16,556 nucleotides of DNA. Origin: Sulfurihydrogenibium yellowstonense SS-5 (lineage in GTDB: Bacteria > Aquificota > Aquificia > Aquificales > Hydrogenothermaceae). The notes below the pieces were generated by a model. That model saw only the letters and a list, made by a program, of their open reading frames with translations. It made no database searches and was not told the origin of the DNA. Each line of letters opens with the position of its first letter. Position 1 is the first letter of the stretch. Location of the stretch: NCBI RefSeq assembly GCF_000173615.1, contig NZ_ABZS01000008.1, positions 1 through 16,556 on the forward strand, written 5' to 3'. A program made the translations under genes and the position numbers. Positions 1 through 4,168 of the stretch are shown here, piece after piece.

Positions 1-653
1 CCTATAACCCTATCACTTATACCAGGTATACTTTTTAAAAGCTTGTATTCCTCTTGAAAATTCTTCTTAGTCAATTCTTTTATCTCTTTCTCAAGTTCTT
101 TTATGTTTTTTTCTATTTTTCTGATTAGATCATCATAATATTCCAAGTTCTCTTTCAATTTTTTGATTGGTATTGGTACATGACTTAAAGATTCTCTTTG
201 ATTTCTTAGCTTTGTAAGCTGATGCTGTAGGTCTTCTAATATCTTTAGTTTTATTTCTATTTCTTTTTCTACATCTGGTTTTGGTTTATAAAGCTCTCCA
301 TCGAAAAACGTTCTTCCATACTGTGCAATAAAGTATGAATCAGTCTTATCTGTTTTGACTCTTGTCATTTTAGCTTCCATAAACTTCTTTATCTAAAATG
401 GATTTACTACTGCTACTTGATAGCCATTTTCATACAGATAATTAGCAAGCTTTAAATGATAAACTCCTGTATGCTCCATTATGATAAGCATATCTGACTG
501 CTTAAACTTTTTAAGATAAGGCTTTATTTTCTTTTCAAACTCAACTGGGTCTGATTTAACTTCAAAGGTTTCTTTCTTGTTATCATACAATACTGTAGCA
601 GTGAATGAGTTTTTAGATACATCAACTCCAACGACGATTTTGTAGTTGTTCAT
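1..653 (-). pseudogene. IS110-family transposase, interrupted by an in-frame TAG, C-terminus outside the window
   Basis: This is a DEDD-type recombinase that moves IS110 elements using a bridge RNA. I start it at the ATG at 653 because AAAGGAGGT lies just upstream; the earlier in-frame ATG at 671 would place that ribosome site inside the coding sequence. From 653, Asp11 lies in VGVDVSK, Glu60 in MEHTGVYH, and Asp102 and Asp105 in RVKTDKTD, so the catalytic tetrad is complete. A TAG at 395-393 follows VVNPF as codon 87. Past it the same frame stays open to position 1, encoding IKKFMEAK, a lysine/glutamate-rich coiled-coil stretch and LLKSIPGIS, the start of the C-terminal transposase domain. 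One substitution, for example TTG (Leu) to TAG, would explain the stop. The catalytic serine of the C-terminal domain lies outside the window. Only Asp11 and Glu60 precede the stop, so without readthrough the product should be inactive. Confidence 0.85.
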
Positions 654-689
654 AAGATTACCTCCTTTCATAAAATACTTGACATGAGA

Positions 690-853
690 GAAACTTCCTG
701 ATAACCTATCATCGTAATCAATACAGGCTTAAAAGCCTAATGTTCTGATTCAGGTTTTAGGAAGTAGAGGAAGGACAGTCTACAAACATTCTGAGCGGTC
801 TTAAAAGACCAATGACAATAACTTGATCTGTCCTTCCTTTTTTCTCCCATGTC
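690..853 (-). ncRNA. Putative IS110 bridge RNA (two internal guide loops)
   Basis: On the minus strand two similar modules follow one another. Module 1 has an 11-bp perfect stem (AGGAAGGACAG, 838-828, with CTGTCCTTCCT, 778-768). It encloses an asymmetric internal loop of 17 and 18 nt closed by the inner hairpin GGTCTTTTAAGACC (810-797). Module 2 has ACTTCCT/AGGAAGT (765-759 with 699-693) plus AACCT/AGGTT (756-752 with 707-703). It encloses a loop of 13 and 17 nt closed by AGGCTTTTAAGCCT (738-725). IS110 bridge RNAs are known to sit in the leader upstream of the transposase and to carry a target-binding loop then a donor-binding loop, each with a left and a right guide. Order, size (about 160 nt) and location all fit. 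Both 5' loop strands end in CATT, and both 3' strands contain ATG near the inner hairpin side, as expected if all guides encode a shared core. The transcript ends are estimates. Confidence 0.78.
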
Positions 854-860
854 TATAATT

Positions 861-889
861 ATTATAAAACTTATTCTCTTGTAGATTAA
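861..889 (-). promoter_or_regulatory. Likely promoter of the bridge RNA / transposase transcript
   Basis: On the minus strand there is a perfect TATAAT (866-861) with a weak TTAATC at 889-884, 17 nt upstream. Transcription would begin near 853, about 15 nt before the first bridge-RNA stem. It lies inside the inferred left end, as expected for an IS110 leader. In such AT-rich DNA, TATAAT alone is weak evidence. Confidence 0.45.
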
Positions 890-962
890 AATTTTTAGTA
901 TATTTAATATACGATGACATATAAGGTTATCCTTCCTTTAATGCGTATCATTCAACCTTTCG

Positions 963-996
963 CTGTCATTCTGAGGACTTTAGTCCGAAGAATCTC
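963..996 (+). repeat. Copy of a dispersed palindromic repeat (TGTCATTCTGAGG type)
   Basis: The stretch starts CTGTCATTCTGAGG, contains the small palindrome GGACTTTAGTCC, and ends GAAGAATCTCA. The same TGTCATYCTGA ... GATCTC / GATTCTC pattern appears in the inverted repeat at 4253-4346, and a decayed reverse copy lies near 12878. This is therefore a repeat family of the genome. It lies outside and next to the inferred IS110 left end and contains the predicted target of the bridge RNA. Confidence 0.7.
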
Positions 997-1020
997 ACTT
1001 TTAAATTTTATAAAAATCAC

Positions 1021-1040
1021 TAATTTCTCACCCAAGGTAT
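1021..1040 (+). repeat. 20-bp direct repeat, left copy
   Basis: TAATTTCTCACCCAAGGTAT is repeated exactly at 1233-1252. The left copy is followed by AAAGGGTG, so CACCC and GGGTG can pair around the AAGGTATAAA centre. Confidence 0.8.
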
Positions 1041-1235
1041 AAAGGGTGTAAATATGTTAAAGTATGTGAAGATAAACAAGAAAAGAGTAAAAGGCAAATT
1101 ATTGAAGCAGTTAATTCTCAAATAAAAAATTTCAATCTTATAAGTAGATGGAGAAAGATTAAAACTTTTGTTGCTTATCTATATTCATATGCTATTGGTT
1201 ATAGCTTTTTTAGAAAAAGTAAACTATGGAGGTAA
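1041..1235 (+). pseudogene. Relic of a transposase C-terminus
   Basis: This frame, with no plausible start codon, reads through about 64 codons and ends at the TAA at 1233-1235, inside the right copy of the direct repeat. Its product contains RQIIEAVNSQIKNFNL, RWRKIKTFVAYLYSYA and IGYSFFRKSKLW. The mix of a short acidic/amide segment, RWRKIKT and an aromatic hydrophobic helix resembles the C-terminal tail of DDE transposases. I cannot name the IS family. The catalytic core is missing, and only the tail remains between the 20-bp direct repeats. The most economical reading is an internally deleted insertion sequence. It could also be a small non-autonomous element. Confidence 0.5.
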
Positions 1236-1252
1236 TTTCTCACCCAAGGTAT
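1233..1252 (+). repeat. 20-bp direct repeat, right copy
   Basis: This is an exact copy of 1021-1040. It starts with the TAA that ends the transposase relic. Direct rather than inverted orientation argues against ordinary terminal inverted repeats. Confidence 0.8.
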
Positions 1253-1264
1253 TTTAAATTATCA

Positions 1265-1294
1265 TATCCAATATATCTATCTCTATGTTAGAAT
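1265..1294 (+). promoter_or_regulatory. Possible promoter for the hydroxyacid dehydrogenase / mqnC pair
   Basis: TAGAAT at 1289-1294 is a fair -10 box. The -35 region (TATCCA, 1265-1270, 18 nt away) is poor. A start near 1301 would give a very short leader before the GGAGG at 1309-1313. Confidence 0.3.
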
Positions 1295-1321
1295 AGATTT
1301 AAACAATTGGAGGGATGTATT

Positions 1322-2344
1322 ATGAATATCTATTTTTTTGAGACGGAAGATTGGGAAAGATTGTACTTAGAGAAAAAAATTCAAGACTCAGGAATTCAAG
1401 GAAGTGTTAAATTTACAAAAGAGCCACTTGATGATACAAATGTAGACCTTTACAAAGATACAGAAGTAGCTATTGTATTTATATATTCCAAGCTAACAAA
1501 AGAAGTAATTGACAAGATGGAAAATTTAAAATTAATCATTACAAGGTCAACAGGATATGATCACATAGATGTTGAACATGCTAATAAAAAAGGTATAACT
1601 GTTTGTAATGTTCCCGGATATGGTAATAATACAGTTGCCGAGTATACATTTGGATTAATACTTGCTTTGGCAAGAAAATTTAAACCTATGATAGAAAGAA
1701 CGTCAAAAGGTATATTTTCAAGAGATGGATTAACAGGAATAGACTTAATGGGTAAAACTATAGGTGTAATTGGTGCCGGAAGGATTGGAAAACATGTAAT
1801 AAGAATAGCCCATGGCTTTGGAATGAAAATACTTGTTTATGATAAAGTTAAAGATAATGAATTGATTGAAAAATACGGCGTTGAGTATGTAGGACTTGAA
1901 GATCTGCTTAGAAGTTCTGACATCGTTACCCTACATGTACCATACACACCGGCAACGCATCATTTGATAAACAGATTTAACATTAAACTTATGAAATTAG
2001 ATGCTATGCTTATTAACACTTCAAGGGGTCCTGTAGTCGAGATAGAAGCTATAGTTCAAGCACTTAAAGAAGGAAGGCTTGCAGGCGGTGTAGGTCTTGA
2101 TACATTTGAAGCAGAAGATGTTTGGATTGAAGAAGAATATCTAAAGAGAGATGATATCCCTGCAATAAAGTTAAAAAAAGCATTAGAGACATTTTATATT
2201 TTACATTCTGAAAATGTTATCGTATCTCCACATAACGCTTATAATACAAAAGACGCACTTTATAGAATATTAGATATTACACTTGATAACTTAAAATCAT
2301 TCATAGAAGGAAATCCAAAAAATATAGTAGGGGTTTCAAGTTGA
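1322..2344 (+). CDS. D-isomer-specific 2-hydroxyacid dehydrogenase (D-lactate dehydrogenase-like)
   Basis: A cytoplasmic NAD-dependent oxidoreductase that interconverts a 2-keto acid and its D-2-hydroxy acid, probably pyruvate and D-lactate. The start is the ATG at 1322, 8 nt after GGAGG (1309-1313); an upstream in-frame TTG at 1307 overlaps that ribosome site and is rejected. In the 340-aa product the substrate-domain motif RSTGYDHID is at 75-83. The Rossmann motif GAGRIG is at 151-156, with Asp174 at the end of the second strand suggesting NAD over NADP. The catalytic triad is Arg235 (NTSRGP), Glu264 (FEAED) and His304 (SPHNAYN). Residues 266-300 are somewhat long and lysine/glutamate-rich. 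The stop overlaps the mqnC start (TTGA), so the two are likely co-translated. Substrate is uncertain, since this family also includes glycerate, phosphoglycerate and formate enzymes. Confidence 0.85.
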   Translation: MNIYFFETEDWERLYLEKKIQDSGIQGSVKFTKEPLDDTNVDLYKDTEVAIVFIYSKLTKEVIDKMENLKLIITRSTGYDHIDVEHANKKGITVCNVPGYGNNTVAEYTFGLILALARKFKPMIERTSKGIFSRDGLTGIDLMGKTIGVIGAGRIGKHVIRIAHGFGMKILVYDKVKDNELIEKYGVEYVGLEDLLRSSDIVTLHVPYTPATHHLINRFNIKLMKLDAMLINTSRGPVVEIEAIVQALKEGRLAGGVGLDTFEAEDVWIEEEYLKRDDIPAIKLKKALETFYILHSENVIVSPHNAYNTKDALYRILDITLDNLKSFIEGNPKNIVGVSS

Positions 2345-3441: not shown

Positions 3442-3804
3442 ATGGCTTACGTTATAGATTATGAGCTTTTAGAGAAGTTAGAGGAAAAAGTAGGCAAAGA
3501 AGAGGCTAAAAAGATTGCTCAAACTATTGAACTGATCTATAACGAATTAGACAAAAAATCAGAAATTTTAGCACAGCAAAAAAAGCTTGAGCTTAAAGAC
3601 GAACTTACTAAGGAATTGGCTACAAAGGCTGATTTAGCAATCATAGAAGCAAAGTTAGAGAAAATTGAAGCTAAATTAGAAAAGGAAATGCTTAAACTTG
3701 ATAAGAAATTTACAATCATGTTTTTGATTCTTGCTTTTTTGATAATTTTCATAAACAAAGATGCGATAGAGTTAATAATCAAACTTTTGCCGTTTGCAAA
3801 ATAG
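3442..3804 (+). CDS. DUF1640-like coiled-coil protein with C-terminal membrane anchor (paralogue 1)
   Basis: A 120-aa protein of unknown function. Residues 1-40 form an acidic/basic helix (LEEKVGKEEAKKIAQTIELI). Residues 41-88 are a lysine/glutamate coiled coil containing ELATKADL, the KADL-type motif common in DUF1640 and related coiled-coil anchor proteins. Residues 89-103 (FTIMFLILAFLIIFI) form one membrane segment, followed by an amphipathic tail ending LLPFAK. There is no signal peptide, so the helix probably faces the cytoplasm. The ATG at 3442 follows GGAG (3430-3433) and lies 18 nt after mqnC, so co-transcription is likely. It is nearly identical over long stretches to the next gene, a clear tandem duplication. 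The family link rests on pattern recognition only. Confidence 0.75.
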   Translation: MAYVIDYELLEKLEEKVGKEEAKKIAQTIELIYNELDKKSEILAQQKKLELKDELTKELATKADLAIIEAKLEKIEAKLEKEMLKLDKKFTIMFLILAFLIIFINKDAIELIIKLLPFAK

Positions 3805-3814
3805 GGAGCCAAAA

Positions 3815-4168
3815 ATGGCTTACGTGATAGACCATGAACTTTTAGAGAAGCTGGAACAAAAGGTAGGTAAAGAAGAGGCTAAAAAGATTGCTCAGACTAT
3901 TGAGCTTATTTATAAAGAACTTGATAAAAAATCAGAAGTCTTAGCACATCAAAAAAAGCTTGAGCTTAAAGATGAACTTACGAAAGAACTTGCTACAAAG
4001 GCTGATTTGATATTAGTTAAGACAGAACTTGAAGCTAAAATTGAAAAAGAAGTGTTAAAACTTGATAAGAAATTTACAATCATGTTTTTGATTCTTGCCT
4101 TTTTGATAGTTTTCATAAACAAAGATGCTGTTGAGTTATTAATCAAACTTTTGCCGTTTGCAAAATGA
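3815..4168 (+). CDS. DUF1640-like coiled-coil protein with C-terminal membrane anchor (paralogue 2)
   Basis: A 117-aa tandem duplicate of the preceding gene, with the same order: helical head, coiled coil with ELATKADL, membrane segment FTIMFLILAFLIVFI, and tail ending LLPFAK. I choose the ATG at 3815, preceded by AGGGAG at 3803-3808. That ribosome site overlaps the stop of the first copy (3802-3804), suggesting translational coupling. An in-frame TTG at 3794 gives only a spurious 7-residue extension. The copies differ mostly just after ATKADL, where copy 1 reads AIIEAKLEKIEAKLEKE and copy 2 reads ILVKTELEAKIEKE, making copy 2 three residues shorter. Both membrane segments are nearly unchanged. 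Function unknown; the two could form a hetero-oligomeric coiled coil. Confidence 0.75.
   Translation: MAYVIDHELLEKLEQKVGKEEAKKIAQTIELIYKELDKKSEVLAHQKKLELKDELTKELATKADLILVKTELEAKIEKEVLKLDKKFTIMFLILAFLIVFINKDAVELLIKLLPFAK

Follow-up and report, generated by a model that had tools for sequence, protein, structure and literature searches.

For 85.7% of the elements in the IS110 group a bridge RNA has been predicted (Durrant et al. 2024, PMC11208160), and a layout with a target loop and a donor loop, together with a junction promoter, is described for IS621 and its orthologues in the same study. Cleavage in IS621 occurs after a CT core (Hiraizumi et al. 2024, PMC11208158), and the same paper names the DEDD and serine residues of the IS621 recombinase. 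The targeting of REP sequences by IS110 elements had been described by 2006 (Tobes and Pareja, PMC1525189).

The window analyzed here is a stretch of 16,556 nt from Sulfurihydrogenibium yellowstonense SS-5, near the start of which lies the left end of an IS110 element, oriented on the minus strand. Its leader almost certainly encodes an IS110-group bridge RNA aimed at a REP-like repeat of the host genome, a reading built on features visible in the sequence: structure, covariation, guide complementarity, a promoter-like junction and insertion in repeats. An earlier note on this DNA had proposed a putative IS110 bridge RNA with the target-loop/donor-loop design, and guides that match both the element's own ends and its target support the proposal. 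The features, in order of position, are as follows.

3..653, minus strand: IS110 transposase from ATG 651-653, with an in-frame TAG at 393-395 (codon 87), cut by the contig edge
651-666: ribosome site, directly downstream of the leader hairpins
690..843, minus strand: two-module part of the putative bridge RNA, as in covariance model R1 (see below)
693..699, minus strand: donor-binding module, outer stem, 3' arm AGGAAGT (second stem AGGT at 704-707)
710..716, minus strand: right donor guide (RDG) TACGATG, complementary to the left end CATCGTA
725..738, minus strand: donor module, inner hairpin AGGCTTTTAAGCCT (fold and covariation)
740..746, minus strand: left donor guide (LDG) AGAACAT, equal to the element's right end (RE ...TAGAACAT)
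759..765, minus strand: donor-binding module, outer stem, 5' arm ACTTCCT (second stem ACCT at 752-755)
769..778, minus strand: target-binding module, outer stem, 3' arm CTGTCCTTCC (fold and covariation)
787..797, minus strand: right target guide (RTG) CGCTCAGAATG, complementary to CATTCTGAGCG of the REP-like target
797..810, minus strand: target module, inner hairpin GGTCTTTTAAGACC (fold and covariation)
812..820, minus strand: left target guide (LTG) TATTGTCAT, of which TGTCAT matches the left target flank (target left half TATATGTCAT)
828..837, minus strand: target-binding module, outer stem, 5' arm GGAAGGACAG (fold and covariation)
900..913, minus strand: left end (LE) of the element, CGTATATTAAATAT, holding a -10-like TATATT (906-911)
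914..925, minus strand: left half of the target, CTTATATGTCAT, with CAT (914-916) common to target and donor
965..997, plus strand: second REP-like repeat copy GTCATTCTGAGGACTTTAGTCCGAAGAATCTCA, facing away from the occupied copy

Fold of the leader and the gene it precedes

Positions 690-853 of the minus strand gave a minimum free energy of -49.0 kcal/mol, against a mean of -35.0 (sd 4.1) for shuffled sequences (z -3.43), and one of 200 shuffles was as stable. Folding thus bears out the two tandem stem, internal-loop and hairpin modules that the earlier note had described on this strand; its coordinates and both inner hairpins were correct, and the 11-bp outer stem claimed for one module is present in module 1, where the two arms listed above are extended by one A-U pair. 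For module 2 it had given a stem of 7+5 bp, of which the 7-bp part stands and the 5-bp part does not, being 6 bp in the single-sequence fold, where the 7-bp stem is followed by a short second stem and the hairpin. In the covariance model this stem was set as 7 + 4 (ACCT/AGGT), and both parts (helices 4 and 5) are supported by comparative pairing. The true 5' end of the bridge RNA may lie further upstream, up to about position 899. Before the target loop there is a weak hairpin, without counterpart in the five relatives folded. Rfam contained no family that reached its gathering score in the window; at a relaxed threshold the sole match was mir-59, rejected as a chance match (21.6 of 80 bits), and on six related loci Rfam gave nothing except a tRNA.

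The rest of the window transposase and the right end of the element are carried by contig C119, which overlaps window positions 1-1402 at 100% identity from its own first base and continues through the whole element, so that its right end is most probably that of the window element. Pfam family PF01548 matched both ORF pieces in the window, at 47.3 and 25.2 bits (the second below the cut-off of 29). This match, along with the NCBIfam name of an intact copy, L006 (336 aa, 'IS110 family RNA-guided transposase'), confirms that the fold precedes an IS110 transposase. The L006 recombinase matches the structures of IS621 (8WT6; phmmer E 3e-35) and ISCro4 (9T56), and its residues D17, E66, D108, D111 and S255 align with D11, E60, D102, D105 and S241 of IS621 (the 8WT6 chain numbering is 2 higher) and are invariant in a 15-row alignment. 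The DEDD RuvC and serine Tnp features are therefore read from this intact copy, the window copy having the TAG; a second intact recombinase gene is found in L005. The best protein match, 91% identical, was from Sulfurihydrogenibium sp. YO3AOP1; a viral collection held one relative, and a plasmid collection 1576 records, all below 60% identity. The element ends 17 bases after the stop codon, which leaves no room there for such an RNA, and the covariance model places it at the left (5') end, upstream of the recombinase gene and on the transposase strand, not at the other end.

Several copies are defective. L044 and L046 in genome G005 lie at different sites and stop at the same codon 166, L155 and L156 in that genome share an identical internal deletion (element 455-555), and L159, L160 and L163 in G002 an identical deletion (190-341) by which the donor module loses its 3' half and the gene its beginning. 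Identical defects at different sites suggest that defective copies have been mobilized in trans by intact ones, and gene conversion may instead be their source. Among G005 copies L057-L062 and L155, several are broken at element positions 717-773, where L058 has an IS256-family transposase; the break points are not identical, which would fit repeated hits on a short hot spot. In the metagenomic homologue P0010, the transposase gene has an in-frame insert (CHPEAVRPKDL...ILRFAQND) that looks like a pair of REP-like repeats. Elsewhere in the window (3442-4168) two short ORFs that resemble each other (MAYVID.ELLEKLE.KVGKEEAKKIAQTIELIY) lie in tandem, each with a hydrophobic stretch at the C-terminus.

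Element ends, target repeat and guides

Aligned copies place the junctions at ...GTCAT|CGTATATTAAATAT on the left and ...TAGAACAT|[TC]CTGAG on the right. The right flank begins with [TC]CTGA in 20 of the 22 right junctions found among 33 loci examined; the other two are L005, which is one base short, and L036, with CTAAGG. The left flank ends with GTCAT in 40/41 leader rows (L036 has GCCAT), a count in which CAT was partly demanded by the search motif and GT was not, and in which the rows are partly dependent (L001 and L003 are one locus, and L050 and L059 have a common flank). The element's own genome gave 13 leader matches, two of them weak. With the leader model there were at least 12 matches in G000 (one antisense), at least 12 in G002 and at least 22 in G005, all lower bounds, as stricter filters were used and at most 22 candidates were scored per genome; at E 0.01 none was found in the other 133 of 136 Aquificota genomes.

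The flanks are the two halves of a dispersed REP-like repeat, GTCATYCTGAG-N4-20-CGAAGRATC, with 197 copies in G000, 242 in G005 and 147 in G002, the three genomes of the genus that carry the element. It had no matches in four other genomes of the genus and five other genomes searched, and a reversed control pattern had none. A looser pattern was found in 8/136 Aquificota genomes; in five of these (G053 and G123-G126) the RNA model matched nothing, so the repeat can exist without the element. Dense clusters of the repeat occur without a bridge RNA match in G123 and G125, which belong to another family of the phylum (e.g., G125:C1:240593-246476). A Y1 transposase (PF01797) is present in one of the seven genomes of the genus, G005. 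A long string of the repeat was not found in the literature among the matches listed, and no title there concerns it.

Module 1 reads as the target loop, with guides for the REP-like repeat TGTCAT|TCTGAGCG, and module 2 as the donor loop, with guides for the element's own ends, AGAACAT and CATCGTA. As single strings the target is TGTCATTCTGAGCG and the donor AGAACATCGTATATT. In the target loop the left guide reads as the top strand and the right guide complements it, both running through the core, and the donor loop has the same layout against the circle junction (RE + LE). The first base of the RTG (797) is also the last base of the target-module hairpin. Among 5000 dinucleotide-shuffled leaders, the number that reached a single guide was 170 for LDG, 189 for RDG, 286 for LTG and 2 for RTG; the donor pair was reached by four, and neither the target pair nor all four guides by any. 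A chance fold would not match both the ends of the element and its target, and these matches thus support the bridge RNA reading. The CAT at the junction is the only sequence common to target and donor, so the core of the window element is CA or AT, and not the CT of IS621, a dinucleotide that belongs to IS621 itself and is not general to the family.

Relatives, compensatory changes and the circle junction

A genome scan by protein alignment kept 79 IS110 loci, and seven leaders from outside the genus were inspected by eye; the same guides were visible in five (L065, L066, L068, L070 and L071) and not seen in L067 and L069. The covariance model R1 was made from seven leaders of the genus only and run on 90 sources, including 58 of the 79 loci. 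Its best matches outside the genus were L065, L068, L066 and L070, with E-values from 9e-10 to 4e-8, and every one of these matches immediately precedes an IS110 gene. We take L065 to be from Thermoanaerobaculaceae, L068 from Atribacteria, L066 from Sulfurovum, L070 from TA06 and L071 from Neomarinimicrobiota. L019, from a different genus of Aquificota, matched at E 7e-5, and weaker matches came from eleven Bacteroidota loci (E 0.001-0.25), the unassigned bacterium L093 (0.02) and L071 (0.086); nothing at E 0.3 or better was seen in 41 of the 58 non-genus loci. The palindromic leaders of the genus also match R1 in antisense, at E 3.5e-5 to 0.02, so that by E-value alone just the four best matches stand; the weaker ones gain weight because they are located just upstream of an IS110 gene.

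The compensatory changes on which the earlier note had made its proposal depend are abundant. A structural alignment was made of 18 rows, 17 from outside the genus plus L012, a degenerate copy from within it; L077 was omitted for scoring the same as L076, and the other genus copies for matching in antisense as well. The Bacteroidota leaders (E 0.0003-0.05 at this step) contributed only to the pair counts. Two-sided changes occur in 33/33 stem pairs, in all six helices; 91.8% of the cells pair, against 59.9% when shuffled and 44-48% when slid, and the covariation score is 0.668 against 0.202 for shuffled rows. These pairing and covariation figures are inflated, as the rows were both found with the structure and fitted to it, an effect judged not enough for the twofold gap. 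The consensus fold given by RNAalifold on a plain MAFFT alignment of diverse leaders was rejected as wrong (2/19 pairs two-sided, with guide-to-guide pairs) because stems of differing sequence were misaligned, and that alignment was replaced by the near-copy model and structural alignment.

Guides and sites change together among elements. In a permutation test on six elements, chosen as those with guides readable by eye, the true guide-site pairing had the top summed score; of the 720 permutations, just one besides it did as well. For single guides, the permutations as good as the true pairing numbered 6 (LTG), 24 (RTG), 12 (LDG) and 48 (RDG) of 720. The donor guide tracks the right end, with TGGAACAT in L065, CAGTACAT in L071, and CAGTACGT versus CAGTACAT in L070. 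In L071 the left end has changed to CATTGT and the RDG to ACAATG, its right end equals the LDG, and the RTG fits 10/10 positions of the target CATCCTGAAC. The target guide of L066 tracks its target (CATTCCTG), and the LTG of L065, AAGCAGTCAT, equals its own left flank over 10 nt (10/10); just 6 bases of the L070 target are known because the contig ends there. The window LDG scored 8/8 on two foreign right ends versus 7/8 on its own, and the window LTG scored 6/8 on its own flank, no better than on some foreign flanks. Within the genus, the association of T and C guides with target type is only suggestive: Fisher's test gave p 0.11 on 16 copies, confounded by species and with two further copies dropped as neither type, and 3/7 T guides are located at C targets.

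Hairpins directly upstream of the ribosome site might regulate the transposase mRNA in cis, as a 5'-UTR control element or attenuator, rather than act in trans as a guide, and a study of the IS110-family element ISPpu9 deals with its leader as a control of expression (PMC8450116). An attenuator would not have to be complementary to the ends or the insertion site of its element, yet all four guides are present here and, in elements elsewhere, shift with their sites, which makes this explanation very improbable. A further alternative, in which the palindromes serve as binding sites in the DNA or derive from captured REP repeats and the RNA fold is incidental, is scarcely credible: the element does lie in a palindromic repeat, and words of the TGTCAT type are found in the flank and again in the leader, but the two-sided changes extend to every helix, the inner hairpins are unlike the REP-like repeat, and the guides are situated in internal loops.

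The bridge RNA reading is also consistent with a sigma-70-like promoter at the circle junction. Joining the ends of the window element gives TTGACA-17-TATATT, with TTGACA from the right end and TATATT from the left. Such a promoter has 11-12 of 12 consensus matches in 5/6 elements, where 0-4 of 500 shuffles were as good; L071 has 8 of 12, equaled by 357/500 shuffles. A promoter scan of the window alone gave nothing convincing, which agrees with a promoter formed only in the circle.

Proposed mechanism and comparison with known systems

From the work on IS621 we infer a course of excision, transcription, protein binding and strand exchange. The element would be excised as a circle, joining RE (TTGACA) and LE (TATATT) as a promoter from which the leader would be transcribed, and the DEDD/Ser recombinase would bind the leader RNA. 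The first internal loop would then pair with the REP-like palindrome, LTG with its bottom strand and RTG with its top strand, and the second with the circle junction AGAACAT|CGTATATT; strand exchange beside the common CAT would insert the element into one REP-like repeat.

Sulfurihydrogenibium is a thermophilic genus, and a naturally heat-adapted bridge RNA had been suggested. No clear signal of this was seen: the RNA has 38% GC and its predicted energy ranks second of six at 60-80 °C. At 70 °C the values were -16.2 kcal/mol for the window, -20.7 for L065 and -7.8 to -13.0 for the four others, which are shorter pieces. There is perhaps an even chance of a wider picture, in which an IS110 branch in hosts of at least six phyla keeps near-identical target guides because the REP-like target GTCATYCTGAR..GAAGRATC and its near variants span phyla, small guide changes follow repeat subtypes (TTCTGAG, TCCTGAA, TTCCTG), and the Sulfurihydrogenibium members, with their AT or CA core, are high-temperature bridge recombinases. 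The bridge RNA comes from a probable thermophile and has been read completely, with the two guides of each loop, the two element ends and the target. The element has many natural copies, some with an intact recombinase gene, and relatives in which guides have shifted together with sites. It is a candidate for bridge recombination at high temperature and on a core other than CT.

No published treatment of this Sulfurihydrogenibium IS110 element was found, going by titles and the starts of abstracts among the matches listed. IS621 (PMC11208160, PMC11208158) resembles the window element in having the RNA in the left end, a target loop followed by a donor loop, split guides with the core inside all pairings, the same guide order and strand sense, a circle-junction promoter, a REP target, and a DEDD and serine recombinase. 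It differs in its CT core, guides and target, and has a 5' stem-loop, of which the window element shows no clear example; the host of the window element is also probably thermophilic, and its recombinase is distant. ISPa11, ISPpu9, ISPpu10 and ISRm19 likewise have copies at one position of their species' REP repeat; those REPs are GC-rich, whereas the repeat here is a different one, GTCATYCTGAG..CGAAGRATC (PMC1525189). Tested IS1111 members have their RNA downstream of the gene (PMC11187229), unlike the window element, in which it lies in the left end and not, as in the IS1111 group, in the right. The seekRNA of the IS110-type ISEc21, like the RNA here, lies upstream and matches both target strands (PMC11187229). 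The bridge RNA is of a kind already known, and the Sulfurihydrogenibium element is a new example of that kind.
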